In this document: piece after piece, positions 4,942-21,489 of the stretch
How positions within the stretch are numbered: the first letter of the stretch is position 1
Layout: each line of letters opens with the position of its first letter
Source: a virus
IMG/VR virus record: IMGVR_UViG_3300020034_000072
Location: 1-21,493 of that record
DNA: 21,493 bases
Direction: 5' to 3' (one strand)
Translations under genes and position numbers: made by a program
Notes under the pieces: model-generated
The model's database searches: none
What the model saw: only the letters and a program-made list of their open reading frames with translations
Told to the model about the DNA's origin: nothing

Positions 4942-4954
4942 CCGTACAACTCTC

Positions 4955-4993
4955 AAAACTAAAACCCGAAACTTGGGCTTTTAGTTTTTCTTT
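4955..4993 (+). terminator. Intrinsic terminator
   Basis: AAAACTAAAACCC pairs with GGG-c-TTTTAGTTTT around a 7-nt loop with a single bulged C, running into TTTTTCTTTT. It ends about 15 nt before the GTG at 5008, so transcription of the downstream block needs read-through, antitermination or an unseen promoter. Confidence 0.85.
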
Positions 4994-5007
4994 TGGATTG
5001 AGGCATT

Positions 5008-5661
5008 GTGGATAACTTTCCCGACAACAGCCATCAGGCTAAGGCTCGGCCGACTGAGAAAGCTGAACAAGAGCCAAAGAAGATCGAACCGATCGTTACG
5101 GGCCAAGTGATTCGTCGAAAGCCGCCTTTGGGTAAGCGTTTTATGGCGACATTCTTCGGAGGCACTGCGAGATCCGCAGTTGCATCAGTGGCTACGGACG
5201 TTCTGTTGCCGGCATTCCGAGACACAGTCGCCGATGCGTTTAGTCAGGCCGTTGAACGAATGATTTACGGTGAGGCCCGCTCCTCCAGTCGTCGTACTGG
5301 TGCCCGGCCGTCCGGATCAAACGGCTACGTCAGCTACAACCGCTATGCGCCAACTTCGCCGACCCGACGTGAGGATCCTCGAGACCGCGATCGCAATCCC
5401 AGCCGACAGGCACGGGCTTCGCACAACTTCGATGAAATCATCCTGGCAACTCGCACAGAGGCTGAGGACGTTCTTAGTGGTCTGTTCGATATTCTGACTC
5501 GCTATGAGTCGACGTCGGTGGCAGATCTGTACTCGCTGGTCGGCATCTCAGCCGAGTTCACCGACAATGACTGGGGTTGGACCGATATTCGTGGTACTGG
5601 CATTGTCCGAGTTGGTAACGGATATCTGCTGGATCTGCCGCGGCCCGAATCTCTGAAGTAG
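5008..5661 (+). CDS. Conserved phage protein of unknown function
   Basis: The gene encodes 217 residues from a GTG start with GATTGAGGC upstream. Three parts are visible. First comes a charged N terminus (KKIEPIVTGQVIRRKPPLGK). Then a moderately hydrophobic region (FGGTARSAVASVATDVLLPA, continuing to FSQAVERMIYGE) is followed by a low-complexity, Arg/Ser-rich linker around residues 90-140. Last is a compact C-terminal domain (HNFDEIILATRTEAEDVL, ending WGWTDIRGTGIVRVGNGYLL). I recall this whole architecture as widespread in actinobacteriophages, without an assigned function. Its start lies directly behind a terminator. Confidence 0.85.
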   Translation: MDNFPDNSHQAKARPTEKAEQEPKKIEPIVTGQVIRRKPPLGKRFMATFFGGTARSAVASVATDVLLPAFRDTVADAFSQAVERMIYGEARSSSRRTGARPSGSNGYVSYNRYAPTSPTRREDPRDRDRNPSRQARASHNFDEIILATRTEAEDVLSGLFDILTRYESTSVADLYSLVGISAEFTDNDWGWTDIRGTGIVRVGNGYLLDLPRPESLK

Positions 5662-5663
5662 CC

Positions 5664-5804
5664 ATGAACTCGGCAGAGATGTTCCGAAACAAAATTAGAG
5701 CAGCATACGTATCTGAAGGATGGCAACGAAAAGTCGATGATATGTCTGACAATCAAGTAGTTGCCATCTATTTCAGGCTAAAAAGACAAGGAAGAGTCGT
5801 TTAA
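5664..5804 (+). CDS. Small hypothetical phage protein (46 aa)
   Basis: The frame opens at ATG 5664, 2 nt after the preceding stop, and ends with a TAA that overlaps the next ATG (TAATG). The protein (MNSAEMFRNKIRAAYVSEGW, then QRKVDDMSDNQVVAIYFRLK) is short, charged and probably a helical pair. I recall similar short proteins with (M/I)SDNQV.AIYFR in phage genomes, of unknown role. There is no strong ribosome-binding site, so translational coupling to both neighbours is likely. Confidence 0.75.
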   Translation: MNSAEMFRNKIRAAYVSEGWQRKVDDMSDNQVVAIYFRLKRQGRVV

Positions 5805-6703
5805 TGAATCTCTCAAATATCAAGAATGCGGTGACATCAAACGCCGCTCGTCAACTGCTTCACGTAAGGTCGAATTCGCCCGCAATTCTGTTCGCCGTAG
5901 GTGTGGCCGGCGTGGTTGGAACTGTCGTCCTAGCCTGCAAGGCGACTCTCAAGGTCGAGGAACTGCTCGACGAACACCAGACCTTGCTGGAGATGACCAA
6001 GTCCGATCGGTTCGAGAAGGAATACACCGACGAAGACCGTAAGAAGGATCAGGTCCTGCTGCACCTCAAGACCGCCGGGAAGCTCGTCAAGCTCTATGCA
6101 CCGGCTCTGATCGTTGGTGTGGTCTCTGTGAGTGCTCTGACTGGCTCGCATATCGTCCTGACCCGTAGGAACATGGCTGTGACTGCTGCTTACGCAGGTC
6201 TCGAGAAGGCTTTCCAGCAGTACCGGAATCGCGTGATCGGAGAGTACGGCGACAACAAGGACTACAAGTTCAAGCACGGTCTTGGCGTTAAGGATGTTCA
6301 GGCTATCGAGGGCGATCAGGTCGTGCTCAAGCAGGTCGTCTCGTTCGATCCAAATCAGTTCTCGGTCTACGCTCGGTTCTTCGATGAGCAGAACCAGAAC
6401 TGGATGAAAGAAGACGAGTACAACTTCATGTTCCTGCGGTCGGTCCAGAACCACATGAACGATCGACTGCGAGCATACGGTCACGTCTTCCTGAACGACG
6501 TCTACGACGCTCTGGGAATCCCGCGATCTCGTGCCGGTGCTGTCGTCGGTTGGGTGCTTGGACACGGCGACGCATTCGTCGACTTCGGCATCTTCGACGG
6601 CACCAAGGAACGAGCACGCGCATTTGTCAATGGCGATGAGCGGTCGATCATTCTCGACTTCAACGTCGCCGGCCTGGTCTACAACCTTATCGAGGAGCGT
6701 TAG
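5804..6703 (+). CDS. DUF6353-like phage membrane protein, copy 2
   Basis: The gene encodes 299 residues. ACAAGGAAGAGTCGTTTA precedes the ATG. Membrane segments lie at about residues 26-45 (SPAILFAVGVAGVVGTVVLA) and 98-115 (YAPALIVGVVSVSALTGSHI). They are separated by a charged loop and followed by a soluble domain with AVTAAYAGLEKAFQQYRNRV and a C-terminal FNVAGLVYNLI. Segment order and spacing match the gene at 2702-3469, with an N-SPxIL start to helix 1 in both. Function unknown; an inner-membrane protein with a large cytoplasmic domain is inferred. Confidence 0.85.
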   Translation: MNLSNIKNAVTSNAARQLLHVRSNSPAILFAVGVAGVVGTVVLACKATLKVEELLDEHQTLLEMTKSDRFEKEYTDEDRKKDQVLLHLKTAGKLVKLYAPALIVGVVSVSALTGSHIVLTRRNMAVTAAYAGLEKAFQQYRNRVIGEYGDNKDYKFKHGLGVKDVQAIEGDQVVLKQVVSFDPNQFSVYARFFDEQNQNWMKEDEYNFMFLRSVQNHMNDRLRAYGHVFLNDVYDALGIPRSRAGAVVGWVLGHGDAFVDFGIFDGTKERARAFVNGDERSIILDFNVAGLVYNLIEER

Positions 6704-6705
6704 AC

Positions 6706-7467
6706 ATGAACATCAACAAGAACGTTCTTATTCCGGTCGGCGCCTCGGTTGCTTCTCTGGCCGCCGGCGTCGGTGTGGGATGGCTTCTCGCGAAGAGGAA
6801 GTTCGTCAAGCACTACGAGGCTCAGATCGCTGCTGAGATCGAGGCAGCTCGGGAGGTCTATAACCGGGTGACCAAGAAGGCTCAGTACGCAACTCCCCAG
6901 GAAGCCGCGGCCGCGCTGCATCCGGACGAGAATATCCTGACGGAGATTCCGAAGGGAAAGACTCTCGGTACAGTTATTCGGAATTATCAGGGCATCAATC
7001 CGGCTCTGGATGTCACCGGCGACGTCGCGATCATCAACGGCAGGGATCCGCACGAGGTCAGCATATTCGACGAGTCCAACTCCGATCTGAAGCTGCCTGA
7101 GGATTTCACGGTCGAGGATCTCGAAGCCCGGACCGAGGACGAGCCGTACATCATCACTGTCGACGAGTTCGGAGATGCCGAGCCCGGCTACGGGAACGTT
7201 ACGGTCACCTTCTTCGAGGGCGACGGCGTTCTCGTGGATGACCAGGAAACTCCGATTCGTGATTTCGATGACATGATCGGCGAGAAGAACCTCGAGCACT
7301 TTGGTCAGTGGTCCGGCGATCGGAACGTTGTCTATATTCGCAACGAAAGGCTCGCCACCAACTTCGAGGTCTTGCGCAGTAAGCAGTCCTACGTCGAGGG
7401 CGTACTTAAATACGTCGATGCTCGTCCGGACACCATGCGCCGTCGTGGGCCACGTGACGATGGGTGA
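6706..7467 (+). CDS. Membrane-anchored conserved phage protein
   Basis: The gene encodes 253 residues and starts 2 nt after the preceding stop, with CGAGGAGCG upstream. One N-terminal membrane helix (residues about 7-27, PVGASVASLAAGVGVGWLLA) is followed by a basic KRKFVKHY and a charged helix, then an acidic soluble domain. The latter contains DEPYIITVDEFGDAEPGYGN and a C-terminal NVVYIRNERLATNFEVLRS segment. I recall the PYII..(E/D)EFG...PGY..VT..(F/Y)F..DGVL(V/A)D pattern from proteins in both actinobacterial and Firmicutes phages; function unknown. The stop overlaps the next start (GTGA). Confidence 0.85.
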   Translation: MNINKNVLIPVGASVASLAAGVGVGWLLAKRKFVKHYEAQIAAEIEAAREVYNRVTKKAQYATPQEAAAALHPDENILTEIPKGKTLGTVIRNYQGINPALDVTGDVAIINGRDPHEVSIFDESNSDLKLPEDFTVEDLEARTEDEPYIITVDEFGDAEPGYGNVTVTFFEGDGVLVDDQETPIRDFDDMIGEKNLEHFGQWSGDRNVVYIRNERLATNFEVLRSKQSYVEGVLKYVDARPDTMRRRGPRDDG

Positions 7468-7991
7468 GAAAGCTTCTTGACGAGCTATATCTCGAATGGC
7501 TCTACGATCAAGTTGCCGATACGAAAATGAAGTCCCCGATCAAAACATATTGGAAGCTGTTACGACAGCTGTATACCAAAGAGTTTGTCTGGTTTGTCCC
7601 TAACGACGACAACCGGATAGAGGACGGGAAAGATCTGCGGTACGAGTTCATCGATCAAGCAGAACTCGATGATGTAGATCTGAGCTGGGTCGATCTAGGA
7701 TGCTCGATGTTAGAGCTCTTAGTTGGTCTGGCTCGACGGATGGATTTTGAATCTGAGCGATTCAACATCTCAGGTGCATTCTGGCAACTCATAGATAATC
7801 TCGAGATACGTGCGGATGATACTCGTAGATTCCCGGATAAAGTCAATCAAGCTCTGGAGAATGTGATCTACCGCACTTACGATTGGAATGGGCACGGGGG
7901 TCTGTTCCCGCTACAACATCCAGCAAAAGATCAACGTGATGTAGAACTCTGGTATCAATTGAGTGCCTATATCCTGGAGAACGAATACTAG
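7464..7991 (+). CDS. Conserved phage protein of unknown function
   Basis: The gene encodes 175 residues from a GTG that overlaps the preceding stop (GTGA). The sequence is aromatic and acidic, without membrane helices. Distinct blocks are YWKLLRQLYTKEFVWFVPND, then DGKDLRYEFID, DLGCSMLELLVGLARRMDFE and a C-terminal RDVELWYQLSAYILE. I recall these blocks as a widespread actinobacteriophage family. I cannot name an activity. It directly precedes the large replication gene and may be co-transcribed with it. Confidence 0.85.
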   Translation: MRKLLDELYLEWLYDQVADTKMKSPIKTYWKLLRQLYTKEFVWFVPNDDNRIEDGKDLRYEFIDQAELDDVDLSWVDLGCSMLELLVGLARRMDFESERFNISGAFWQLIDNLEIRADDTRRFPDKVNQALENVIYRTYDWNGHGGLFPLQHPAKDQRDVELWYQLSAYILENEY

Positions 7992-8007
7992 GGCGAGAGG
8001 AGGGTAG

Positions 8008-11000
8008 ATGGATTTCTTTCAGATCTGCACGAAAGAGACCAAGGGCGGAGTCGAAGTATATCCCGACTTCACTGTTGGTCGATCCAAGGATCTTATGGTC
8101 CGAGGCGGCTCATTTTATGCTATCTGGGACGAAGGACTCGGTCTGTGGTCTACGGACGAGTACGACGTTCAACGGCTTGTGGATAAAGATCTCCATGACT
8201 ACGCCGAGAAGCTAACAGCCGAAGGTACTCAGTGCAGTGTTAAATACCTCCGCTCGTTTACTAGTAACGGATGGCAGCAGTTCCGCAGGTTCATGGCCAA
8301 CGTAAGCGACAACAGTCACACTCTTAATGAGACTCTGACGTTCGCTAATACGGAGGTGAAGAAGAATGACTATATCTCTAAGCGACTGCCTTACGCTCTG
8401 CAAGTGGCTCATTGTCCAGCATGGGTTGAGCTTGTCGGTTCGCTGTATGACAGTGATGAGCGTCAGAAAATTGAGTGGGCGATCGGCGCTGTCATTTCTG
8501 GAGATTCTAAGAAGCTCCAAAAGTTCCTGGTCCTCTACGGTCCAGGAGGTACGGGAAAGTCTACGATACTCAACATCGTACAGAAAATATTCGAGGGCTA
8601 CACAACGTCGTTTGAAGCAAAAGCGCTTGTTGGAAACAACAACTCATTCGCAACGGAGATATTCAAAGGACACCCACTTGTAGCTATCCAGCATGATGGG
8701 GATTTGTCCAAGATTGAGGACAACACCAAGCTGAACTCAATTATCTCGCACGAGGAAATGACACTGAACGAAAAGTACAAACCGAGTTATACCGCCCGTA
8801 TCGACGCATTTCTCTTTATGGGTACGAACAAACCGGTGAAGATATCTGATGCCAAGTCGGGGATCATCCGTCGCTTGATCGATGTGCATCCGACAGGCTT
8901 CACCTTCAAGCCGAAGCATTATCACTCTCTGCTGGCTCAGATCGATTTTGAACTGGGTGGGATTGCGAGTCACTGTCTCGAGGTATATCGCGAGATGGGA
9001 AAGAACTACTACAATGCATATCGGCCGCTGGACATGATGTTCCAGACTGATGTGTTCTTCAACTTCATTGAGGCGAACTATGACATATTCAAGCAGCAGG
9101 ACGGAGCGACTCTCAAACAAGCATACGCACTATACAAGGACTACGTCCAGGAAAGTAGTTTGGATTTCTCGCTTCCTTTGTATAAGTTTCGAGAGGAACT
9201 TAAGAACTACTTCGAGACGTTTGTGGATCGAATCGTTCTTGATGGAACGAATCTTCGGAGTTACTATTCGGGATTCAATGCGCAGCCCTTTAAAGTTCCA
9301 CTCGTTCAAGATACACAAACCTTCTCCTTGGTAATGGACGAGACCACATCCATATTCGACCTTGATTGTGCTGATCAACCTGCGCAGCTGGCCAAGGAAG
9401 ACGGGACGCCTACGATCGGTTGGGCCTCAGTCAAGACTCGCTTGGCCGATATCGATACGTCCGAACTCCACTACGTAAAGGTTCCTGAGAACCATATTGT
9501 GATCGATTTCGATTTGAAGGGAGACGACGGTGGACGAGATCTTGAGCGAAATCTTGGAGCGGCTAGCGAGTGGCCAGCCACTTATGCCGAGCTTAGCAAA
9601 AGCGGCGCAGGAGTCCATCTCCATTATCTTTATGCCGGGGATACATCCGGACTCAGTTCGAGTTATAGCGACGACATCGAAGTTAAAACCTTCTCAGGAT
9701 GGGCATCGCTACGTCGCCGCCTCAGTCGATGCAACAATGTACCGATCGCAACCCTGAATGGCGGTCTCCCGCTAAAGGAGAAGAAGATGCTCCAAACAGA
9801 TACCATCAAGAGCGAGAAGGGACTAAGAGACCTTATCGCCCGAAATATGCGCCGGGAGATTCATCCAGGAACAAAGCCGTCGATCGACTTCATTCACAAG
9901 ATCCTCGAAGAGGCATATCTGTCTGGTATGACTTACGACTTGACTGATCTTAGATCCAAGTTGTTGGTCTTCGCCAATGGCAGTACGCACCAGCCTCTGC
10001 CGAGTCTCAAGGTTGTCCAGACGATGAAGTTCCATTCGGACTGGGAAACTGAGGAGGTGAAGCCGATTGTCGTAGAGACTAAGGACGATCGACTTGTCAT
10101 GTTCGATGTCGAGGTCTTCCCGAACCTGTTCGTTGTGTGTTGGGGATATGAAGACTCCGACATTATTGTTACGATGATTAATCCGACAGCTCAAGAGATC
10201 GAGGAGCTGTTTAAGTACAAGCTGGTGGGGTTCAACAACCGGCGGTACGACAACCATATGCTCTACGCCCGATTCCTGGGGTACGACAATGAGCAGCTGT
10301 ACAAACTCTCGAAGAAGATCATCGATGGCGTCGTGGGCGCGTTGTTCGGCGAGGCATACAACCTGTCTTACGCCGATATCTACGACTTCACGTCTAAGAA
10401 GCAAGGACTCAAGAAGTACGAGATCGACCTTGGTATCCATCACATGGAATTAAATCTTCCGTGGGATCTTCCCGTTCCTAAAGAATTCTGGTTGAGAGTA
10501 GCAGAGTACTGTTGTAACGATGTACGGGCCACCAAGGCTACCTTCAAATCTCGTAAGCAGGATTGGGTTGCTCGACAGATTCTTGCGGAGCTCAGTGGTC
10601 TGTCGGTCAACGACACGACGGCTAAGCATGTCGCGAAGATCATATTCGGCGATGATCGCAATCCTCAGCGAAATTTCGTCTACACCAAGCTTTCTAAGGA
10701 CTTTCCTGGGTACGAATTCGATCGAGGAAAGTCCACATATCGTGGCGAGCTGGTCGGAGAAGGAGGTTACGTCTATGCTGAACCAGGCATTTATGAGGAT
10801 GTTGCTCTTCTGGATGTGGCCTCGATGCATCCAACGAGTCTCGTTAATCTCAATGCATTTGGTGAATACACCGTGCGGTTCGCTGAGCTCCTCGAAGCGC
10901 GTCTGGCGATTAAGGCTAAGGACTACGACTTGGCCAAGGGTCTTCTGCAAGGCCGACTCGCCAAGTTTCTTGATGATCCTAGTGGTGCTCAAGGGTTGGC

Positions 11001-11805
11001 CGATGCTCTTAAGATCATCGTCAACATCGTCTACGGGCTCACCAGTGCCAAGTTCGACAATTCCTTCCGCGATTCTCGGAACGTCGACAATATCGTCGCG
11101 AAGAGAGGCGCCCTATTCATGATCGACCTGAAGCATTTCGTCCAGGAGAAGGGTTTCACGGTAGCGCATATCAAGACGGACTCGATCAAGATTCCGAATG
11201 CGACACCAGAGATCATCCAGGAAGTCATGCTATTCGGGGAGAAGTACGGCTACAAGTTCGAGTACGATCCACACAAGGACCACTACGAGGCTTTGTGTCT
11301 CGTGAACGATGCGGTCTACGTGGCCCGGAAGCTGATCGACTTCGGTGATGAGGGACAGACGAACGAGAATGTCTGGACGTCTGAGTTCACCGCCGTCGGC
11401 GCTCAGTTCCAGCATCCGTATGTCTTCAAGACGTTGTTCAGTCATGAGGACATCACGTTCGAGGACCTGTGTGAGACCAAACAGGTAACTCAGGGAGCGA
11501 TGTATCTTGACTTCGAACATTCTCGTCCTATGGCTCTTGTCGAGGGCATGCATTTCGTTGGTCGGACTGGTCGATTTGTTCCCGTGGAAGAAGGTTTCGG
11601 GGGCGGTGTACTTTACCGTGTTAAAGACGAGAAGAAATATGCGGTATCGGGTACGAAGGGCTATCTTTGGCTCGAGGCCGAGATCGCGAAGGATCTAGGA
11701 GACAAGTTAGATATTGATCTGGGCTACTTCGAGAAGCTGGTGGAAGACGCACGAAACACCATCGACTTCTTCGGAGAGTTCACGAGGTTCGTCGGAAAGG
11801 AATAG
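8008..11805 (+). CDS. SF3 helicase - AEP primase - family B-type DNA polymerase fusion
   Basis: The gene encodes 1265 residues; GAGAGGAGGGTAG precedes the ATG. Residues 1-330 look like a D5-type SF3 helicase: Walker A GPGGTGKST (178-186), an LVAIQHDGD Walker B-like strand, FLFMGTNKPVK (sensor-1 type) and RRLIDVHP. Residues about 480-600 resemble an archaeo-eukaryotic primase: VIDFDLK with D500 and D502, GVHLHY with H537, and acidic residues 555-558. The C-terminal half is a family B-type polymerase. Exo I is D700/E702, Exo II is FNNRRYDN (742-749), and Exo III is Y834-x3-D838. Motif A is D936-VASMHPTS, motif B is K1002-IIVN-IVYG, and motif C is TDS with D1058. Catalytic residues appear intact apart from Lys in the first motif C position. 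Role: unwinding, priming and copying of phage DNA in one chain. Confidence 0.85.
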   Translation: MDFFQICTKETKGGVEVYPDFTVGRSKDLMVRGGSFYAIWDEGLGLWSTDEYDVQRLVDKDLHDYAEKLTAEGTQCSVKYLRSFTSNGWQQFRRFMANVSDNSHTLNETLTFANTEVKKNDYISKRLPYALQVAHCPAWVELVGSLYDSDERQKIEWAIGAVISGDSKKLQKFLVLYGPGGTGKSTILNIVQKIFEGYTTSFEAKALVGNNNSFATEIFKGHPLVAIQHDGDLSKIEDNTKLNSIISHEEMTLNEKYKPSYTARIDAFLFMGTNKPVKISDAKSGIIRRLIDVHPTGFTFKPKHYHSLLAQIDFELGGIASHCLEVYREMGKNYYNAYRPLDMMFQTDVFFNFIEANYDIFKQQDGATLKQAYALYKDYVQESSLDFSLPLYKFREELKNYFETFVDRIVLDGTNLRSYYSGFNAQPFKVPLVQDTQTFSLVMDETTSIFDLDCADQPAQLAKEDGTPTIGWASVKTRLADIDTSELHYVKVPENHIVIDFDLKGDDGGRDLERNLGAASEWPATYAELSKSGAGVHLHYLYAGDTSGLSSSYSDDIEVKTFSGWASLRRRLSRCNNVPIATLNGGLPLKEKKMLQTDTIKSEKGLRDLIARNMRREIHPGTKPSIDFIHKILEEAYLSGMTYDLTDLRSKLLVFANGSTHQPLPSLKVVQTMKFHSDWETEEVKPIVVETKDDRLVMFDVEVFPNLFVVCWGYEDSDIIVTMINPTAQEIEELFKYKLVGFNNRRYDNHMLYARFLGYDNEQLYKLSKKIIDGVVGALFGEAYNLSYADIYDFTSKKQGLKKYEIDLGIHHMELNLPWDLPVPKEFWLRVAEYCCNDVRATKATFKSRKQDWVARQILAELSGLSVNDTTAKHVAKIIFGDDRNPQRNFVYTKLSKDFPGYEFDRGKSTYRGELVGEGGYVYAEPGIYEDVALLDVASMHPTSLVNLNAFGEYTVRFAELLEARLAIKAKDYDLAKGLLQGRLAKFLDDPSGAQGLADALKIIVNIVYGLTSAKFDNSFRDSRNVDNIVAKRGALFMIDLKHFVQEKGFTVAHIKTDSIKIPNATPEIIQEVMLFGEKYGYKFEYDPHKDHYEALCLVNDAVYVARKLIDFGDEGQTNENVWTSEFTAVGAQFQHPYVFKTLFSHEDITFEDLCETKQVTQGAMYLDFEHSRPMALVEGMHFVGRTGRFVPVEEGFGGGVLYRVKDEKKYAVSGTKGYLWLEAEIAKDLGDKLDIDLGYFEKLVEDARNTIDFFGEFTRFVGKE

Positions 11806-11809
11806 AGCT

Positions 11810-12097
11810 ATGCCCCTGTTCAGCAGATATCGTCTCATCCCTATCCCAGCAGACGTGGTGGAGTTAACTGAGCGCAACATCGAAAAGGTAGCCAAGTGGT
11901 GTGGCTCTGACATGATCCATGAGACTAATCCGCGTCAAGGCAGTGGCGTTATGCCGAGATTGTTCATTATGGTTCCAACTCAATCTGGACCTGTAGTGGC
12001 GATGGTTGGAAGTTTTGTCGTTCGATCAATGGGCGGTGGGTTCGAGGTTCTATCTCGCCGTCAATTTGAGGCTTCATACGAGAGGGCGAGCGACTGA
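11810..12097 (+). CDS. VAxWC-family small phage protein, member 1
   Basis: The gene encodes 95 residues. The ATG at 11810 follows GGAAAGGAATAGAGCT and starts 4 nt after the polymerase stop; the frame is open further upstream but only inside the polymerase gene. It has the block VVELTERNIEKVAKWCGSDM, a middle strand VAMVGSFVVR and a tail GFEVLSRRQFEASYERASD. The same three blocks recur at 13329-13577, 14428-14799 and 14799-15170. I recall such proteins as common in actinobacteriophage replication regions; function unknown. The stop overlaps the next start (TGATG). Confidence 0.8.
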   Translation: MPLFSRYRLIPIPADVVELTERNIEKVAKWCGSDMIHETNPRQGSGVMPRLFIMVPTQSGPVVAMVGSFVVRSMGGGFEVLSRRQFEASYERASD

Positions 12098-12327
12098 TGT
12101 TTAACGAACATGTTCGAGCTCTGGTTGAGAAAGAAGATCAGAAGCTAAGAGAAATCTACGAAACAGTACCTGAAGACTATTACCTCTGCGTTCATGATCA
12201 CGAATATCAGTGGTTCCAGGAGGGGTTTGGTCTTAGACTAATTCACCAGCAAAGCTTCCACCCCATTCCAACTCCTGAGTATTGCGAAGCTAAGGTGTCC
12301 AAGAAGCAGTATGGCCCGAAGGTCTGA
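12097..12327 (+). CDS. Small hypothetical phage protein
   Basis: The gene encodes 76 residues, starting in a TGATG overlap with the preceding gene. The sequence is polar and rich in aromatic and His residues (YYLCVHDHEYQWFQEGFGLR, then LIHQQSFHPIPTPEYCEAKV). The His and Cys residues (C31, H33, H35 among them) could bind metal, but they do not form a spacing I recognise. Its end overlaps the next gene by 17 nt if that gene starts at 12311. No family recognised. Confidence 0.65.
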   Translation: MFNEHVRALVEKEDQKLREIYETVPEDYYLCVHDHEYQWFQEGFGLRLIHQQSFHPIPTPEYCEAKVSKKQYGPKV

Positions 12328-13855: not shown

Positions 13856-14358
13856 TGGATCAAGATAAGACGGTCTTGATGGAGGGAGTTCGGATTCTCT
13901 TCCGCAACTTCGCCGGCAAGGAAGGCCCGATGAATCGTGAGGGCGACCGCAACTTCTGCGTTCTCCTGGACGAGGAAGTGGCCGAGGCGATGCACGCGGA
14001 TGGATGGAACGTCAAGCCTTTGCGGGCTCGCGAAGAAGGAGATCCGGATCAACCATATCTGCCGGTCTCGGTTAACTTCAAGAACCGACCACCGAAGATC
14101 TGGCTAGTGTCGTCACGGGGACGTACTCTGCTGTCTGAGGACGTTGTCGAGATCCTGGACTACGCCGATATCCTCTCGGTCGATCTGTTGGTCAACCCAT
14201 ACAACTGGACGGTCAACGGAAAGTCCGGCGTCAAGGCTTATCTTAAGACGGCTTTCATCGTGATCAACGAAGATGAGTTGGAGCTTAAGTACGCCGACCT
14301 GAATGAGCTCCCGACCCGCTCTGGAAAGGTGGACGATGACCCGCCGTGGAACCCGTAA
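13855..14358 (+). CDS. Probable single-stranded DNA-binding protein
   Basis: The gene encodes 167 residues, starting in a TAATG overlap with GTGAAGGAG upstream. It opens with VRILFRNFAGKEGPMNREGD and FCVLLDEEVAEAM, continues through a strand-rich middle (DQPYLPVSVNFKNRPPKIWL), has YNWTVNGKSGVKAYLKTAFI, and ends in an acidic tail (DDDPPWNP). I recall this family being annotated as ssDNA-binding in actinobacteriophages, and the acidic, proline-containing end fits such a protein. The middle portion could form an OB-fold, but that is not provable from sequence alone. Its location between a helicase-polymerase and other replication genes fits. Confidence 0.65.
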   Translation: MDQDKTVLMEGVRILFRNFAGKEGPMNREGDRNFCVLLDEEVAEAMHADGWNVKPLRAREEGDPDQPYLPVSVNFKNRPPKIWLVSSRGRTLLSEDVVEILDYADILSVDLLVNPYNWTVNGKSGVKAYLKTAFIVINEDELELKYADLNELPTRSGKVDDDPPWNP

Positions 14359-14431
14359 GGGCGGTATTCCAGCCTGGATCTGGGTACTGGTAATCATCGC
14401 CGCGGTGGTCGTGCTGCTTATTCAGTCATGA
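14336..14431 (+). CDS. 31-residue single-pass membrane protein
   Basis: ATG 14336 lies inside the end of the preceding gene in another frame and follows GGAAAGGTGGACG, a clear ribosome-binding site. The product is MTRRGTRKGGIPAWIWVLVI followed by IAAVVVLLIQS: a basic head and one hydrophobic helix, which predicts N-in orientation. The stop overlaps the next ATG (ATGA). Size and topology are typical of phage microproteins; function unknown. Confidence 0.65.
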   Translation: MTRRGTRKGGIPAWIWVLVIIAAVVVLLIQS

Positions 14432-14799
14432 ACACAGCCGGCGCTATCGCCATTGGGTCGATTCTATTTCTTGGGATCGTTGCCAATGGTCTCGTTATCC
14501 GTTATCAAGGAAGGCATCCTGTGAAATTCAGGCGAATTCCCGCTGTCGTCGAGGCAATCCAGTTCACCGGCGACAACATCACAGAGATCTGGGATAAATT
14601 CGGTACGGCCGGGATCTATGGTCCGACTGAGAACAATCCGGACTATCTCTTGGTGGAGGCTCAAGCACAACTCCAAGACAGGCATCGGCACGTCAGGGCG
14701 TTTAAGGGCGACTGGCTTGTCAAGGGCCAGCTGAAGGACACGTTCCAGGTGTACCGTCCCATCGAATTCGAACTACTATATTCCAAGATTGAGGACTGA
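14428..14799 (+). CDS. VAxWC-family-like protein, member 3, with N-terminal membrane helix
   Basis: The gene encodes 123 residues from ATG 14428. Residues 4-25 (AGAIAIGSILFLGIVANGLV) form a membrane helix, followed by the family domain (VVEAIQFTGDNITEIWDKFG, then GDWLVKGQLKDTFQVYRPIE). A GTG at 14521, with AAGGAAGGCATCCT upstream, would give a soluble 92-residue form like the other family members. Which start is used cannot be decided here; both may be. This copy lacks the W-C pair of the other members. The stop overlaps the next start (TGATG). Confidence 0.7.
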   Translation: MNTAGAIAIGSILFLGIVANGLVIRYQGRHPVKFRRIPAVVEAIQFTGDNITEIWDKFGTAGIYGPTENNPDYLLVEAQAQLQDRHRHVRAFKGDWLVKGQLKDTFQVYRPIEFELLYSKIED

Positions 14800-15170
14800 T
14801 GTCTGTTCAGACCAGCTCGTTCGTCCGTAAGCCCTTCTACGTCGATGCACTGCAGGTGACCGAAGAGAACATGGGTGAGGTTGCTTCGTGGTGTCGTGGT
14901 GAGATCCGTCGGGCTTCGGCTCGTACGATTCCAACTCCGATGCCGGCGGCGAAGTACATCAAGGTCGACGTCACTCGAGCACAGCAGGAGCGTCAGACGA
15001 TGGCGTTTGTGGGTGACTGGATTCTGCGTCTGGGATCCGGCTATAAGGTCTACACTCGTAAAGCATTCGAGCGAAGCTTCGAGCCGGTCCGTGAGGACGT
15101 CGAGGCGTTGCTGGATGAGGTTTTTCCGGAAACCGTGAGCGATCTCGCAGGTAATAAGTACAACGTCTAA
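14799..15170 (+). CDS. VAxWC-family small phage protein, member 4
   Basis: The gene encodes 123 residues, starting in a TGATG overlap. It shows the full family pattern: YVDALQVTEENMGEVASWCR, a variable middle with PTPMPAAKYIKVDV, MAFVGDWILRLGSGYKVYTR and a KAFERSFEPV end, plus about 30 extra C-terminal residues (EDVEALLDEVFPETVSD). It is the longest soluble member of four in this 3.4-kb stretch. Function unknown. After its stop a 175-nt intergenic gap holds promoter copy 6. Confidence 0.8.
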   Translation: MSVQTSSFVRKPFYVDALQVTEENMGEVASWCRGEIRRASARTIPTPMPAAKYIKVDVTRAQQERQTMAFVGDWILRLGSGYKVYTRKAFERSFEPVREDVEALLDEVFPETVSDLAGNKYNV

Positions 15171-15219
15171 CACTTGTATGTGATGGATGGCGCTTTTGTA
15201 TCCTTAAGGAGGAGATAAC

Positions 15220-15252
15220 GTGTTCTTATTTGGGCTACGATCTACTTGCTGA
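15220..15252 (+). CDS. Possible 10-residue leader peptide
   Basis: GTG 15220 follows TTAAGGAGGAGATAAC, as strong a ribosome-binding site as any in the window, and opens a frame of 10 residues (MFLFGLRSTC) ending at TGA. It lies in the intergenic gap before promoter copy 6. It may be a remnant of a decayed gene or a translated leader; there is no attenuator-like codon run. Confidence 0.25.
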   Translation: MFLFGLRSTC

Positions 15253-15296
15253 ATCAGGATCCCAGCACACTGCATCACTGAGTAGTAGGGGTCTCG

Positions 15297-15329
15297 TCGT
15301 AGAATTTACATGCCCTATAATGAGACCCC
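15297..15329 (+). promoter_or_regulatory. Repeated promoter box, copy 6
   Basis: TCGTAGAATTTACATGCCC is followed by TATAATGAGACCCC. TATAAT is at 15316-15321, 19 nt after the box start. This copy lies about 10.6 kb from copy 5 yet keeps the same spacing and downstream GAGACCCC. The next ATG is 24 nt past the -10. Confidence 0.9.
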
Positions 15330-15345
15330 TATGAAAGGAACTAAA

Positions 15346-15549
15346 ATGACTTCGGACGAACGCATCATCTACACCAAGTTGATTTTGAATCCCGGAATGA
15401 CATACATCACACCAGATGGACAGCAGCTATATTTGCTAGTCACTGGCGGGATGATGTGCCTGACTGGACCAGACTTCAACTTGCTGAATGAAGCAGACAT
15501 CAACAAGTTCATTCAAGACGCCTTAACCCAAACTCGTCTCGTAAACTAA
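15346..15549 (+). CDS. Small hypothetical phage protein
   Basis: The gene encodes 67 residues. I chose ATG 15346 because ATGAAAGGAACTAAA lies before it; upstream in-frame ATGs at 15310 and 15331 fall within or next to the promoter. The sequence (KLILNPGMTYITPDGQQLYL, then a TGGMMCLTGPDF segment) suggests a small beta-rich fold with a helical end. No family recognised. It is a promoter-gene-terminator cassette like those in 1104-4993. Confidence 0.75.
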   Translation: MTSDERIIYTKLILNPGMTYITPDGQQLYLLVTGGMMCLTGPDFNLLNEADINKFIQDALTQTRLVN

Positions 15550-15590
15550 AAGAACTGAGGGCCTAACCATGGCCTTTAGTTTTTGCCTTT
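15550..15590 (+). terminator. Intrinsic terminator
   Basis: Fourteen bases at 15550-15563 pair continuously (some G-T wobbles) with 15571-15584 around a TAACCAT loop, running into TTTTTGCCTTTT. It directly follows the stop at 15549. Confidence 0.9.
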
Positions 15591-15602
15591 TAAGGAGGAG
15601 AA

Positions 15603-15869
15603 ATGTCGGAAGTAACTGAGCTATGGATGGCTAACGGAACGCATCAGGACGAAGCCGATCTGGTCAAAAGCGAAGACGTCTATATTCTTAGCGTTTATAG
15701 TGACGAGATAGCTAGAATACAACTTGACCGAAAGGACTTGAAAGATCTGTTCAACGCGATCGGGAACGAACTCAACATATGGTGGGGCAATGTGTCCATG
15801 AACGAGGTGAAACATGCTGGGACCGAAGTTGAAGGAACACCAGTTAAAAGCCCTTCAGAAGCTCTCTAA
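15603..15869 (+). CDS. Small hypothetical phage protein
   Basis: The gene encodes 88 residues; TTAAGGAGGAGAA precedes the ATG. Visible blocks are an acidic middle ([20 protein letters not shown]), a helix [17 protein letters not shown] and a polar tail. It overlaps the SF2 helicase gene by 56 nt, so its tail is encoded over the helicase start. It starts only 12 nt after a terminator, so its transcription needs read-through. No function is recognised. Confidence 0.7.
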
Positions 15870-17001
15870 CGGACGAATTCTGTGGGGGGGTACAGGTAGT
15901 GGCAAATCAATCGTTGCTGCGGCCTATTACATGAAAAAGGAGGCCGACGCTGACGTTTACGTGATTACGACAGCCAAGAAGCGTAACTCACTTGATTGGG
16001 AAGGGACGTTCGTAAAGTTCGGAGTTGGTAAGCATTTGAATGCAACAGTGGCCGGCGCTTTGACGGTTGACTCGTGGAACAATCTAGGTAAGTACAGGGA
16101 TGTGAAAAATGCTTTCTTTATCTTTGATGAACAGCGTCTTGTGGGCTCTGGGAGCTGGACTGCTCACTTTCTTAGCATTGCAAAAGCGAACCGCTGGATT
16201 TTACTATCTGCTACTCCTGGGGATAACTGGCTGGATTACATCCCTGTATTTCTTGCGAATGGTTACTATCGCAATCGCACAGAGTTCAAGCGGGAGCATG
16301 TTGTATATAGTCCATACAGTAAGTTCCCTAAAGTAGATCATTACGTGGGTGTGGGAACACTGGTGAGACTGCGGAACCAGCTCCTGGTTGAGATGCCATA
16401 CGAGCCGCATACCACTCGAGTGATGAAGCAGATCGAGGCTGAATACGATAAAGAGTTATTTGACAAGGTGGTGAAGCAACGATGGGATGTTTACAACGAA
16501 CGCCCTATCAGGGACGTCGCGGGACTATTCAGTGTGATGAGGAAGGTTGTAAATTCCGACAAGTCGCGCTTACGCATCCTGACGGAGCTGTTGGCTACGC
16601 ACTCGAGGCTGATTGTGTTCTACAATTTCGACTACGAGTTAGAGATTTTGAGGACCTTATCGGTCGAGGGATTGTCTATATCGGAGTGGAATGGCCACCG
16701 TCATCAGGATGTGCCGACGACTGATTCTTGGTTATATCTTGTGCAATATGCGGCAGGCGCGGAAGGTTGGGAGTGCACGTCTACGGACGCGATGGCGTTC
16801 TATTCTATGCCATATTCGTACAAACTGTGGCATCAAGCACCAGGTAGGATCGATCGGTTGAATACACCATATTCTACACTTTACTACTATACCATCACCA
16901 GTCGGTCACCAATAGACAAAGCTGTAACAGGGTGTTTGAAAGCTAAGAAATCGTTCAATGAGAGTGCATATCGGACAGACTTTGATGTCTGGAAAGCGTA
17001 G
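15814..17001 (+). CDS. SF2 DNA helicase (DEAD/H or SNF2-like)
   Basis: The gene encodes 395 residues; GAGGTGAAAC precedes the ATG. The protein has the full SF2 motif set. These are a Q-type [12 protein letters not shown] start, Walker A GGTGSGKS (25-32), Walker B variant DEQR (105-108), SATP (132-135), and a C-terminal motif [10 protein letters not shown] (341-348) preceded by a V-like [17 protein letters not shown]. It is shorter than typical SNF2 proteins and lacks accessory domains. Likely role: ATP-driven unwinding or translocation in phage DNA replication or recombination. It completes the replication block. Confidence 0.85.
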
Positions 17002-17077
17002 TATGTCTTGTATGAGCGAAATAACCCTTGTCACTTTGCCACTTTTACTTGAAAAAACTTCCCAGTAATGTTTTATG

Positions 17078-17094
17078 GGTATCTAATAGATACC
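17078..17094. promoter_or_regulatory. 17-bp perfect palindrome, operator candidate
   Basis: GGTATCTA-A-TAGATACC is a perfect 8+1+8 palindrome in an AT-rich 168-nt spacer between the helicase stop (17001) and the ATG at 17170. A TTGAAA at 17049 with a TTTTAT about 16 nt later could be a weak promoter abutting it. The symmetry fits a dimeric repressor site. Confidence 0.5.
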
Positions 17095-17169
17095 TTATAA
17101 GAGATTATAGAAAGTTTTTCGAAGAATTTTTGGCAAAATGACGGGATGTGGATGAAAGGGATAAATAGG

Positions 17170-17679
17170 ATGCAGTCAAGATGGAGTGTTATTCCAGAGT
17201 TCCCTAATTACTCTGTGAGTGACACCGGCTTTGTTCGTAATGACGATTCGGGAAAGTTGATGTCTGGTTTAGTGAATCAGCATAATTCTTTGATCGTCGG
17301 AATTACACGAGGGCATGTTCAATACAAGAGGGCCGTCGCGCCCTTAGTAGCTTCGGCATTTCTACCACCACCAAAACTAGAAACGTTCAACACGCCAATA
17401 AATCTAGATGGAGATCGAATCAATTGCCACGTCGACAATCTTATGCTCCGTCCGCTCTGGTTCGCGCGTAAGTACTTCGCTCAGTTCAGGTTCTTATATC
17501 CTCGCATCTCAAATCCGATCGAAGAACTAAAGTCTGGTGAATGGTTTGAGAACTCACGAGTCGCTGCTACCACACATGGTCTTCTAGATTTAGAGATCTT
17601 GATCGCAACGCTAAATCATACCTATGTATGGCCGACTTATCAGAGATTTCGCATCATTCCCCAAACAGATACCGTATAG
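17170..17679 (+). CDS. NUMOD4/HNH-like protein with degenerate HNH
   Basis: The gene encodes 169 residues from ATG 17170, chosen because GAAAGGG lies 9 nt upstream; in-frame ATGs at 17146 and 17155 are less well placed. The N terminus RWSVIPEFPNYSVSDTGFVR is a NUMOD4-type DNA-binding motif. It is followed by INLDGDRINCHVDNLMLRP, which matches the HNH core spacing (H-x-D-G-...-N...NL) but has Asn where the catalytic His is expected. A C-terminal segment (SRVAATTHGL...LEILIATLNHTYVWPTY) resembles a NUMOD1-like helix pair. It may be an inactive HNH or a DNA-binding regulator. Confidence 0.75.
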   Translation: MQSRWSVIPEFPNYSVSDTGFVRNDDSGKLMSGLVNQHNSLIVGITRGHVQYKRAVAPLVASAFLPPPKLETFNTPINLDGDRINCHVDNLMLRPLWFARKYFAQFRFLYPRISNPIEELKSGEWFENSRVAATTHGLLDLEILIATLNHTYVWPTYQRFRIIPQTDTV

Positions 17680-17681
17680 CA

Positions 17682-17703
17682 TCGCAAACATGCCCTATAA
17701 TGG
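17682..17703 (+). promoter_or_regulatory. Promoter-like site, divergent box copy 7
   Basis: TGCCCTATAATGG at 17691-17703 matches the core of the repeated box, and TCGCAA lies upstream at 17682. The spacing from TCGCA to TATAAT is only 14 nt instead of 19 and the GAGACCC part is missing. It stands 15 nt before the GTG at 17717, so it may be a separate, weaker promoter or a chance match. Confidence 0.45.
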
Positions 17704-17716
17704 AAGGAGGAAGCCT

Positions 17717-18037
17717 GTGCTTGAGTCACGTTATCAAGCGTATCTCATCCGAAAGATCAAGGAAGAATTTCCTGGTGCTTTCGTGATGAAGAATGATACG
17801 GGTTATATTCAAGGCGTCCCAGATCTCAGCGTTCTATTCAACAAGAGTTGGGCTGAGCTAGAAGTAAAGACACACGCATCGCAGAGGCACGAACCAAATC
17901 AAGACTTCTATGTTAATCTGCTAGACGAAATGTCTTTCGCCCGGTTCATATATCCTGAGAACGAAGAGGAAGTCTTCCATGATCTACAACAAGCATTTGA
18001 ACCTCGCCGGCATGCACGCGTTCTTAAGTCCAAGTAG
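17717..18037 (+). CDS. PD-(D/E)XK nuclease, VRR-NUC-like
   Basis: The gene encodes 106 residues from GTG 17717, chosen because GGAAGGAGGAAGCCT precedes it. The catalytic core reads GVPDLSVLFNKSWAELEVK, with P35-D36 and E49-x-K51. An upstream E/K-rich helix (LIRKIKEEFPGAFVMKNDTG) and a downstream ANQ-like helix fit a VRR-NUC or Holliday-junction-type nuclease. The C-terminal PENEEEVFHDLQQAF is a block I recall from such phage nucleases. It probably cuts DNA during replication, recombination or packaging. It overlaps the next nuclease gene by 59 nt. Confidence 0.8.
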   Translation: MLESRYQAYLIRKIKEEFPGAFVMKNDTGYIQGVPDLSVLFNKSWAELEVKTHASQRHEPNQDFYVNLLDEMSFARFIYPENEEEVFHDLQQAFEPRRHARVLKSK

Positions 18038-18539
18038 TTATCACTGGCTAAACTATGATGACGATAAACTAGACCGTGTGTTCTACACAAATGTACAAGC
18101 ACAACGGGGAACCGAGCTTCACACACTTGCACACGATCTTATTCGTCTAGGCGTCAAGCTGCCTGAGGATCAGAAGACTTTGAGTCGATACGTCAACGAT
18201 GCCATTGGTTATCGGATGACACCTGAGTTGACTCTATATTACTCAGACAACTGTTACGGTCACGCAGATGCTCTTGGGTATCGGAATGACAAACTCCGAA
18301 TCCATGATCTAAAGACCGGTGTTACTCCAACAACAGAACACCAACTCGAGATCTACGCAGCCTTATTTTGTCTCGAATACAAGTTCAGACCTTTCGATAT
18401 GGAGATAGAACTTCGTATCTACCAGTCAGATGAGGTTCGAGTCTACGAGGCAGATCTCGATGTCATATTCCACATCATGGAAAAGATCAAGTACTTCGAC
18501 AAGCGTCTCAACGCACTCAGAGCGGAGGTACTAGAGTGA
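17979..18539 (+). CDS. Cas4/RecB-like PD-(D/E)XK exonuclease
   Basis: The gene encodes 186 residues. The pattern is that of RecB/Cas4 nucleases: an N-terminal helix pair with RGTELHTLAHDLIRLGVK, then GHADALGY (D97), HDLKTG (D110, K112) and QLEIYAALF (Q122, Y126). No cluster of four cysteines typical of Fe-S Cas4 enzymes is visible. In phages such proteins are usually taken as recombination or DNA-processing exonucleases. It overlaps the previous nuclease by 59 nt and the RNA-polymerase-like gene by GTGA, which suggests translational coupling. There is no CRISPR array in the window. Confidence 0.8.
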   Translation: MIYNKHLNLAGMHAFLSPSSYHWLNYDDDKLDRVFYTNVQAQRGTELHTLAHDLIRLGVKLPEDQKTLSRYVNDAIGYRMTPELTLYYSDNCYGHADALGYRNDKLRIHDLKTGVTPTTEHQLEIYAALFCLEYKFRPFDMEIELRIYQSDEVRVYEADLDVIFHIMEKIKYFDKRLNALRAEVLE

Positions 18540-21187
18540 TCATTACCGAAGAGCAATATCTCGCGCACTACGGTACTCTTCGCCGGTCTGGACGATATCC
18601 TTGGGGTTCGGGTGGATCAGACGCAGAACACAATCGGAACTTCTTGGAGTTGGCCGCACAACTTCATAAAGAAGGAAAGACTGACACTGAGATCGCGAAG
18701 TATTTTGGTTTGACTACAACACAACTTCGTGCTTCCAAGTCGATTGCCAAGAACTCAGAAAAGCAAATACAGATCAACCTAGCACAAGATCTACACGACA
18801 AGGGAAATTCAAACGTAGCCATTGGTAAACGAATGGGTCTTCCTGAGTCATCAGTTCGTGCATTACTAGCGCCTGGTACCAAAGACAAGAATGATATTCT
18901 TCAGGCCACATCGAACATGCTGAAGGATCAGGTTGATCAGAAAAGATTCGTCGATGTTGGCGTTGGTGTAGAGCACTATCTCTCCATCAGCGATACGAAA
19001 CTACGAACCGCTCTGGCTCAACTGCAAGAAGAAGGATATGAGGTTCACCCTATTCAAGTGGATCAGATCGGAACCAACAACAAGACCATTGTCAAGGTTC
19101 TCGCGCCTCCTGGTACTACTTATCGAGACATTGTCACTAACAAAGACAAGATCCAATCGCTTACTGATTATTCCACTGATGGTGGTCGTACCTACGTTGG
19201 TACACAAAAACCTCTCAACGTGGATCTGAAGCGGGTTGCAGTACGGTATGCAGAAGAAGGTGGCGCACAATCAGATGGCGTTATTTACGTTCGTCCTGGT
19301 GTGTCAGATCTAAGTCTTGGTGCCGCTCGCTATGCTCAGGTTCGTATCGCTGTTGGTGGTACGCATTACCTAAAAGGCATGGCAATGTACAAAGACGATC
19401 TACCAGCTGGTGTAGATCTAATGTTCAACACCAACAAGAGCAACACAGGAAATAAGTTAGACGCAATGAAGCCGCAGAAGCTTGACGATCCTACCAATCC
19501 GTTTGGTGCGTCAGTTAAGCAGAAGACTGATCCAGAAACAGGCAAAGTTATATCTGCAATGAACACGGTCAATGAAGAAGGCGATTGGCAGAAATGGTCA
19601 AACAATCTTTCTTCTCAAATGTTGTCTAAGCAGAGCCCATCTCTTGCTAAGACACAATTGAACATGACCTATGAACAATCTAAAAATGATCTTGATGAGA
19701 TCATGAAGCTGACCAACCCAGCTGTTCGCAAGAAGTTGCTTGAAGGATACGCTGATGCAGCAGACTCTTCGGCTGTGCATCTTGAAGCAGCCGCGCTTCC
19801 TCGCCAAGGTCCGCACGTTATTTTGCCAATCGAATCGATGAAGGACACAGAGATATATGCTCCCAACTTCAATAGCGGTGAGCGTGTAGCTCTTATTCGG
19901 TACCCTCATGGTGGAACGTTTGAGATTCCTGAACTTACTGTAAATAACCGTCAGCCAGAAGCTAAGAAGTTATTGGGCGATGCTAAAGATGCAGTAGGTA
20001 TCAACAGTAAGGTAGCCGAACGTCTCTCTGGTGCAGATTTCGATGGCGATAACGTTTGGGTTATTCCAAATAACTCAGGTAAAGTTAAAACATCGCCTGC
20101 ACTGGCTGGTTTGAAGAACTTTGATCCCAAGTCAGCATATCCTAAGTATGAAGGCATGCCAGTAATGACGCCTCGTCAAAAGGGATTTGCGATGGGTGAT
20201 ATTTCAAACCTCATCACAGATATGACAATCCAAGGCGCACCAACGGCCGAGCTCGCTCGAGCAGTTCGGCATTCAATGGTAGTCATTGACGCAGAGAAAC
20301 ATGAACTTAACTGGAAACAGTCTGCCATCAAAAATGGTATTCCTGCATTGAAAGTTAGGTATCAAGGCAAAGCAAACGCTGGTGCTTCAACTCTTATTTC
20401 CAAAGCCACCGCTCGAATCGATGTACCTAAATTTAAACCCCGTGCCATATCAAAAGGGGGTCCAGTTGACAAGCAAACTGGTGAGAAGATATTCGAGAAG
20501 ACTGGTGAGTCGTTCGTAGACAAGAACGGCAAGACTGTTATTAACACCACTAGATCTAAGAAGCTAGTGGAGACTAACGATGCGCATACCCTGTCCTCAG
20601 GCACGCCCATAGAGAAGGTCTATGCAGACCACTCCAATGCACTGAAGGCGCTAGCTAACACAGCTAGGAAAGAAGCGGTCAATACGAAGAATGCTGAATG
20701 GTCTGACTCTGCTAAGAAGGTGTACTCCAAAGAAGTAACCTCCCTCAACGCAAAGTTGGCCCTTGCTCAGAGAAACGCCCCTCTTGAAAGAGCCGCCCAG
20801 GTCCTAGCAAACGCCCTCGTTGCACAGAAGCGTGCCGCTAAACCCGGCATGGACGCAGCGGAACTGAAAAAGATCAAGTTTCAAGCTCTTACAGAATCCC
20901 GTATCAGAACCGATGCCAAGAAACAACGCATCAAGATAACCGATGACGAATGGGCTGCCATACAGGCAGGCGCAATTAGTTCTAACAAACTAAATCAGAT
21001 CATTAACAACTCTGATCTAGACCGTCTCAAAGAACTTGCTATGCCCAAGACTGCTGTTCTGATGACGTCTGCTAAGACTGCTAGAGCTAAGCAGATGGTA
21101 GCATTAGGCTACCCACAGGCAGAGATAGCTAGTGCTCTAGGTGTAGGACTAACCACACTCAAGAAGACTCTTAGTGAAGGAGGCTGA
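18536..21187 (+). CDS. Candidate single-subunit double-psi beta-barrel RNA polymerase with helix-turn-helix domains
   Basis: The gene encodes 883 residues from GTG 18536, overlapping the previous stop (GTGA). Residues 8-27 hold an HYG...SGRYPWGSGG motif, which I recall from phage virion-associated proteins. Helix-turn-helix units lie at about 39-66 and 82-111, and a third at about 850-880 (GYPQAEIASALGVGLTTLKK). Residue block 276-301 (HYLKGMAMYKDD...FNTNKS) offers lysines 280, 286 and 301, as a beta-like barrel would need. IRYPHGG (R455) precedes SGADFDGDN (D501, D503, D505), the metal-binding loop of beta-prime-like barrels. Downstream HSMVVIDAEKH (D585, K588) resembles the D-x-x-K of QDE-1-type polymerases. 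The nearest comparison is the YonO/QDE-1/crAss-phage group. Activity is inferred. Confidence 0.75.
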   Translation: MIITEEQYLAHYGTLRRSGRYPWGSGGSDAEHNRNFLELAAQLHKEGKTDTEIAKYFGLTTTQLRASKSIAKNSEKQIQINLAQDLHDKGNSNVAIGKRMGLPESSVRALLAPGTKDKNDILQATSNMLKDQVDQKRFVDVGVGVEHYLSISDTKLRTALAQLQEEGYEVHPIQVDQIGTNNKTIVKVLAPPGTTYRDIVTNKDKIQSLTDYSTDGGRTYVGTQKPLNVDLKRVAVRYAEEGGAQSDGVIYVRPGVSDLSLGAARYAQVRIAVGGTHYLKGMAMYKDDLPAGVDLMFNTNKSNTGNKLDAMKPQKLDDPTNPFGASVKQKTDPETGKVISAMNTVNEEGDWQKWSNNLSSQMLSKQSPSLAKTQLNMTYEQSKNDLDEIMKLTNPAVRKKLLEGYADAADSSAVHLEAAALPRQGPHVILPIESMKDTEIYAPNFNSGERVALIRYPHGGTFEIPELTVNNRQPEAKKLLGDAKDAVGINSKVAERLSGADFDGDNVWVIPNNSGKVKTSPALAGLKNFDPKSAYPKYEGMPVMTPRQKGFAMGDISNLITDMTIQGAPTAELARAVRHSMVVIDAEKHELNWKQSAIKNGIPALKVRYQGKANAGASTLISKATARIDVPKFKPRAISKGGPVDKQTGEKIFEKTGESFVDKNGKTVINTTRSKKLVETNDAHTLSSGTPIEKVYADHSNALKALANTARKEAVNTKNAEWSDSAKKVYSKEVTSLNAKLALAQRNAPLERAAQVLANALVAQKRAAKPGMDAAELKKIKFQALTESRIRTDAKKQRIKITDDEWAAIQAGAISSNKLNQIINNSDLDRLKELAMPKTAVLMTSAKTARAKQMVALGYPQAEIASALGVGLTTLKKTLSEGG

Positions 21188-21189: not shown

Positions 21190-21447
21190 ATGGTAGAGTC
21201 TATGCTCACTACAGTGGACAATCCATACAGTCCATTCACACAGTACGATGAGTGGTACGCCTTTGATGAAGGCAGTGGCTACCACACTACTGCCTTCCTA
21301 GCTAGGATTGCTGTTGTGTCTGATGATTCATCAGAAGCAGATCAAAGTTTAGCAATTGAAGACGCAATCGATGAGATTGTTAAAGAGAATGTTCTTGGAA
21401 TTTATAGAAAAGTTCCTGATCCAAATGGTCAGAGCTCGGACGATTAG
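21190..21447 (+). CDS. Conserved small phage protein next to the RNAP-like gene
   Basis: The gene encodes 85 residues; GTGAAGGAGGCTGACA precedes the ATG, 2 nt after the RNAP-like gene stop, so the two are probably co-translated. It reads NPYSPFTQYDEWYAFDEGSG, then LARIAVVSDDSSEADQSLAI and EDAIDEIVKENVLGIYRKV. I recall this short acidic protein from phage genomes just before the terminase genes, with no assigned function. No membrane segment. It may mark the edge between the early/replication region and the packaging module. Confidence 0.8.
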   Translation: MVESMLTTVDNPYSPFTQYDEWYAFDEGSGYHTTAFLARIAVVSDDSSEADQSLAIEDAIDEIVKENVLGIYRKVPDPNGQSSDD

Positions 21448-21459: not shown

Positions 21460-21489
21460 GGGGGGTCTCGCAGAAACCACCCCCCTTCT
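21460..21489 (+). terminator. GC-rich stem-loop at the right edge
   Basis: GGGGGGT (21460-21466) pairs with ACCCCCC (21479-21485) around a 12-nt loop, directly after the stop at 21447. There is only a TTCT tail, so termination would be weak. The loop contains TCGCAGAAA, like the promoter box, but no TATAAT follows at the right distance. Confidence 0.4.

Follow-up and report, generated by a model that had tools for sequence, protein, structure and literature searches.

A single-subunit two-barrel RNA polymerase of phages that carries a candidate capsid-targeting tag, and a repeated promoter-like element in the early regions of phages that encode it

The window analysed here is a viral DNA record of 21.5 kb (21,493 nt) that, with relatives of 42-45 kb, is probably a genome fragment. 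Towards its right end lies an operon, on the plus strand, that begins with a small endonuclease gene (17717-18037; phrog_93, E 6e-11), for which a GTG start was chosen by its position after a promoter-like site, and continues through a RecB/Cas4-like exonuclease gene (17979-18539; phrog_3953, E 1.7e-72) into a polymerase gene (18536-21187). The exonuclease ORF overlaps the polymerase start by 4 nt, consistent with coupled translation, as a preliminary description of this DNA had proposed for the polymerase and a Cas4-like nuclease. The same operon order is found in Scap1, Bing, Secretariat and Circum. Located 3' to the polymerase gene is a gene for a conserved 85-amino-acid protein (21190-21447, plus strand; phrog_4303, E 4.5e-35), 68% identical to Scap1 gp56, and near the right contig end there is an inverted repeat, GGGGGGTCTCGCAGAAACCACCCCCC (21460-21485), possibly linked to the genome end. 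Elsewhere in the window, positions 8008-11805 encode a 1265-amino-acid protein with an end-to-end match to phrog_4210 (DNA polymerase), in which primase/helicase-like profile matches occupy the N-terminal third and DNA polymerase matches lie behind. Terminator-like hairpins, each with a T-rich run behind it, are present between early genes (1826-1856, 2277-2304 and 4965-4994), with similar repeats in Bing, Scap1 and ReqiPepy6.

The polymerase ORF, previously predicted at these positions, has a GTG start at 18536, a stop at 21187 and encodes 883 amino acids. PHROG 4291, named 'RNA-dependent RNA polymerase', matches residues 4-881 against positions 7-907 of its 909-position profile with 1310 bits, a full-length membership, and the polymerase is present in 250 of 50,697 phage records, with a match covering at least 80% of its length in all but one (249), so that the ORF is not a chance occurrence. 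The hosts of these records include Arthrobacter (95), Gordonia (55), Streptomyces (54) and Lactococcus (13), and depositors usually name the polymerase, uninformatively, a helix-turn-helix protein. When two divergent homologues served as scan queries, just five further viral contigs came to light. Several homologues in Gordonia phages (G021, G022, G025, G034 and G039) have one in-frame TAG within the profile match. With PHROG 4291 and these 250 records, the family is already catalogued and the polymerase itself is not new; it is named both in PHROGs and in RefSeq, contrary to the earlier expectation that homologues are usually left unnamed.

The active-site residues lie where the preliminary description had placed them. 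The metal-binding loop, DFDGD (residues 501-505; 20036-20050, plus strand), has its aspartates at D501, D503 and D505 as numbered, within the motif S498-G-A-D501-F-D503-G-D505-N506; the range quoted for this motif, 499-506, was one residue short of the actual 498-506. R455-Y-P-H, K280, K286, K301 and V583-I-D585-A-E-K588 are likewise found as listed. In 92 homologues, with identities down to 42%, D501, D503, D505, K280, R455, D585 and K588 are invariant. The three aspartates, whose conservation had been suggested as a check, thereby constitute the DxDGD metal triad of the two-barrel RNA polymerase superfamily. K301 is retained in 91 of the 92 homologues. Only 81 retain K286, and from this alignment a catalytic role for K286 is therefore unlikely.

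Sequence searches of the solved structures, even with a 56-sequence profile, found no polymerase, and the sole credible matches were to helix-turn-helix proteins, so a comparison of folds was needed. An AlphaFold2 model of the polymerase, built from 56 homologues, has a mean pLDDT of 80.7. With this model, Foldseek ranks QDE-1 at the top (E 1.5e-9), then the P23-45-type gp64/gp62 enzymes (E 4e-8) and, behind these, RDR2 (E about 1e-5). VIA-align gives Z scores of 17.2 for maize RDR2, 16.6 for QDE-1, 13.1 for P23-45 gp64 and 9.8 for the virion enzyme gp96, with most of the alignments spanning residues 223-714. The first barrel region (residues about 223-350; 19202-19585, plus strand, boundaries approximate) has six strands in the model, lies within the QDE-1 match and holds the invariant K280 together with K301. 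The catalytic double-psi beta-barrel (residues about 419-515; 19790-20080, plus strand) also has six model strands and contains the DFDGD loop, and its residues 419-512 match an isolated VCP-type double-psi beta-barrel domain (7dg9) with Z 9.5. At the level of the predicted structure, the fold matches to QDE-1, RDR2 and P23-45 gp64 support the proposal that this protein is a single-subunit, two-barrel RNA polymerase. The crAss-like phage gp66 (PDB 6VR4) was not among the fold matches listed, an absence that does not argue against a relationship between the two enzymes.

Domains predicted to bind DNA flank the catalytic core. Residues 28-222 (18617-19201, plus strand) form an N-terminal module of two helix-turn-helix units followed by a winged helix, as indicated by the model (pLDDT 85.7 in this region) and Pfam helix-turn-helix hits; in a fold search with this module, winged-helix matches were weak, with a best Z of 8.5. 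Residues 845-881 (21068-21178, plus strand) form a C-terminal helix-turn-helix recognized by Pfam (HTH_23, E 3.7e-7; HTH_7, E 5.9e-7). The helix-turn-helix flanks noted previously are therefore present at both ends.

N-terminal to these domains, residues 11-26 (HYGTLRRSGRYPWGSG; 18566-18613, plus strand) form a tag that, from its conservation, disorder and the occurrence of related tags near terminase and portal genes, is a candidate capsid-targeting peptide. It is the most conserved stretch measured in the polymerase, with 81% of its positions at least 90% conserved, whereas residues 27-222 reach 25% and the catalytic barrel 54%. The model leaves residues 1-27 unfolded (pLDDT <50), and a stretch so strongly conserved yet unfolded is typical of a linear targeting motif. 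In phage MT835616, two proteins that flank the terminase start with a near-identical tag, HYGLPRRSGRYKWGSG and HYGLPRRSGRYKYGSG. SGRYKWGSG is present on non-polymerase proteins beside the terminase in three contigs (L093, L100 and L102), of which L100 and L102 each have a terminase and two tagged proteins, and in other contigs it is present on the polymerase itself.

A shorter related tag, LAHYGVKGMKWG, is catalogued as Pfam DUF7211 (PF23847). The two have in common an HYG...WG sequence near the N-terminus, with HYGVKGMKWG as the DUF7211 form and HYGxxRRSGRYPWG, four residues longer, as the polymerase form. The window polymerase has no match to Pfam DUF7211 at E <= 1, and its tag is therefore described as related to DUF7211 rather than as a member. 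DUF7211 scores above the cut-off in 20 of 20 near-full-length relatives and in 0 of 14 control genomes, and tag matches number 31 in 2,192 ORFs versus 0.06 in shuffled sequences. In ReqiPepy6, the DUF7211 tag heads seven consecutive genes, gp15 to gp21 (14185-19935), between the terminase and the portal, with bodies that are all different. In Scap1, 1706 and the first 50 kb of BitterVaud1, tags are confined to the terminase-portal cluster and the polymerase. By genus, the KWG tag and the polymerase are found in nearly identical sets of phage records. Secretariat gp15 (9829-11382) consists of a tag, a GNAT acetyltransferase, a second tag and a papain-fold glutamine-deamidase-like domain, an arrangement suggestive of a pair of cargo units joined in a single chain, perhaps to be cut apart. 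Upstream of the terminase, ReqiPepy6 (10681-12276) and Secretariat (5953-7653) each encode a 2H phosphoesterase (2'-5' RNA ligase-like) in which a DUF7211 tag is internal; this may be a counter-defence enzyme that is injected. A literature search found no phage paper on the tag or DUF7211, and none in the collection searched that names the DUF7211 family; as far as could be found, the polymerase tag is undescribed.

The GenBank record of Lactococcus phage 1706 bears on whether the polymerase is a virion protein. Both its polymerase, orf75, and orf7, a protein with two tags, were deposited as 'structural protein', and this wording suggests experimental detection because the terminase and portal in the same record are merely 'putative'. 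Two small proteins of the early region, orf62 and orf71, are also labelled 'structural protein', so contamination could lie behind the labels; the tag was sought on orf62 and orf71 and not found, and so cannot explain all of these assignments. Taken with the tag sequences, the polymerase is probably carried in the phage particle.

TCGCA-N14-TATAATGAGACCCC is common to direct repeats in the early regions of the window, of Bing and of Scap1, and the general form of the repeated element is TCGCR-N5-WACA-N5-TATRRT. By weight matrix, the window and Scap1 have 6 sites each, Bing and Secretariat 10 each and ReqiPepy6 11, and shuffled sequence has none. Genomes carry about 4-13 copies, which with few exceptions lie in the early or middle region and on its coding strand; the same scan detected no site in the late region of Secretariat (1-30 kb) or of Bing (before 25.7 kb). 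Circum, BitterVaud1 and 1706 have their own versions, with TATAGT replacing TATAAT in nearly all 1706 sites, and the spacing is identical in the actinophages, the Bifidobacterium phage BitterVaud1 and the Lactococcus phage 1706. Promoter-like elements are located in the window, all on the plus strand, at 1104-1136, 1544-1576, 1892-1924, 2018-2050, 4649-4681, 15297-15329 and 17677-17701. A start codon follows 24 nt after the TATAAC hexamer of the 1104 site and 24 nt after the TATAAT of the 1544 site, and in the window, Secretariat and ReqiPepy6 most start codons are 23-27 nt after TATAAT. There is no ORF behind the 1892 site; the sequence that follows it (1918-2010) folds somewhat better than shuffled versions (z -2.0), and a small structured RNA here is possible. 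In ReqiPepy6, one element ends just upstream of a tRNA-Ala gene, which favours the element marking the start of transcription over its being a translation signal.

The 17677 site precedes the endonuclease-exonuclease-polymerase operon. Equivalent sites with one or two mismatches are present in Secretariat, Circum and ReqiPepy6, and weaker ones, with three mismatches, in Scap1, Bing and FP_oengus; the region ahead of the polymerase showed no element in 1706, P118 or BitterVaud1. Within window positions 1-8000, no element site scores as a sigma-70 promoter, and the flank at the expected -35 position is not conserved. Downstream of the element, GAGACCCC is conserved in several actinophages. A dyad, GGGGTC...GAGACCCC, at the 15297 site and in Bing was considered as an operator and rejected because it flanks only some copies of the element.

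When 2.9 million viral contigs were scanned for TTACANNNNCTATAATGAGACCCC, 108 stretches were returned. Of the 35 source contigs of at least 35 kb that have this motif, 29 encode the full polymerase and 34 DUF7211; in the six without a full polymerase, the gene may, judging from the gene order of relatives, lie beyond the contig ends. An exact scan for TTACANNNNCTATAATGAGACCCC in 85,000 bacterial and archaeal genomes returned none. Because tag, polymerase and element mark one phage group, their co-occurrence may reflect common descent and is in itself no proof of joint function; more weight attaches to the spacing, which is conserved between phages whose hosts belong to different phyla. No phage paper was among the matches listed in a literature search on the element, which, as far as could be found, is also undescribed.

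From the features computed here, namely the polymerase fold, its invariant residues, the tag and its sharing with proteins adjacent to the terminase and portal, and the element and its placement, we infer packaging and injection of the polymerase, promoter recognition by it, and a DNA rather than an RNA template. The explanation that we judge to be on the probable side, if not by much, and the simplest to cover all of these features at once, is that a packaged, injected polymerase starts early transcription at TCGCR-N5-WACA-N5-TATRRT by means of its own helix-turn-helix and winged-helix domains. The polymerase would be packaged in the phage head via its N-terminal HYG...SGRYPWGSG tag and injected together with the phage DNA, and its fused domains would then recognize the element. 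The short early genes would be transcribed first and its own operon later, with a transcript of the operon that could pass the junction of the genome ends and continue in the direction of the late genes. A broader proposal, plausible and falling somewhat short of an even chance, is that HYG...WG is a general capsid cargo tag of this phage group that loads both a self-sufficient, promoter-specific polymerase and injected effectors into the head, with infection starting at this cross-phylum promoter; the GNAT acetyltransferase, the papain-fold deamidase-like domain and the 2H phosphoesterase are the effectors proposed.

The main alternative, which we consider unlikely, is a non-virion enzyme made during infection that, as YonO does for the late genes of SPbeta (PMC5467207), reads late genes together with its own operon, with the early element read by host RNA polymerase and its sigma factor and the tag binding a partner of phage origin, for instance the packaging machinery. 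The operon adjoins the genome end and, from the gene order, would lead into the late genes after circularisation, and the TATAAT of the early elements fits host sigma A. The other proteins with the tag are, however, those of the terminase-portal cluster, 1706 orf75 was deposited as a structural protein, and the late regions of Secretariat and Bing have no copies of the element. It is also conceivable, though less likely than not, that the element is a promoter for host sigma A (TATAAT) joined to a site for a phage activator or repressor (TCGCR...ACA) and is unrelated to the polymerase, which could then be packaged or not. Many copies do have a perfect -10 consensus, TATAAT being that of the host sigma, and actinobacterial promoters tolerate poor -35 boxes. 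This reading fits less well with the unconserved -35 flank and the sites in window positions 1-8000 that are not of the sigma-70 type, with TATAGT in nearly all 1706 sites, with the conservation of GAGACCCC downstream in several actinophages, and with a spacing that is the same across host phyla in an element that has no exact match in 85,000 prokaryotic genomes. That the enzyme is an RNA-dependent RNA polymerase copying phage or host RNA, as the name of PHROG 4291 and the nearest folds, QDE-1 and RDR2, would have it, appears very improbable: structures of QDE-1 with DNA templates exist, as their titles document, those phage relatives that have been characterised, YonO and the P23-45 enzymes, use a DNA template to transcribe phage genes, and the helix-turn-helix and winged-helix units at both ends of the polymerase suggest a duplex DNA target.

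If the polymerase is indeed a virion enzyme, the phages of these about 250 records, mostly of Arthrobacter, Gordonia and Streptomyces, do not need the host enzyme to begin transcription, a strategy described until now, to our knowledge, in few phages (N4, jumbo phages, crAss-like phages and P23-45). A head-loading tag, if correct, would account for DUF7211, would allow virion cargo to be predicted from sequence alone and could be a means of loading proteins of choice into the heads of laboratory phages. The conserved element is a testable candidate promoter for a two-barrel single-chain polymerase.

The existing names of the family, PHROG 4291 'RNA-dependent RNA polymerase' and SEA-PHAGES 'helix-turn-helix DNA-binding domain protein', make no mention of a tag, packaging or a promoter. 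The cell-encoded QDE-1 and RDR2 are the best fold matches (Z 16-17 over residues 223-714, at about 13% identity), and we know of no phage tag or N- and C-terminal helix-turn-helix modules in either. Like the window polymerase, YonO of SPbeta, of about 100 kDa, is encoded by a phage as a single chain; its published description relates it to the two barrels of cellular RNA polymerase, and it reads late genes from promoters whose sequence was left open in the 2017 paper (PMC5467207). In P23-45, both gp96 and the non-virion gp64 are, like the window polymerase, single-chain two-barrel phage RNA polymerases, and gp96 contains DFDGD and is packaged, with a repeated promoter motif as the proposed site from which it reads pre-early genes (PMC10770324). 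That motif differs from TCGCR-N5-WACA-N5-TATRRT, and gp96 is part of the tape measure protein, whereas the window polymerase is a protein on its own and has a short tag and helix-turn-helix domains that belong to it. A virion-borne polymerase that starts early transcription in these phages would do as P23-45 gp96 does, by another route.
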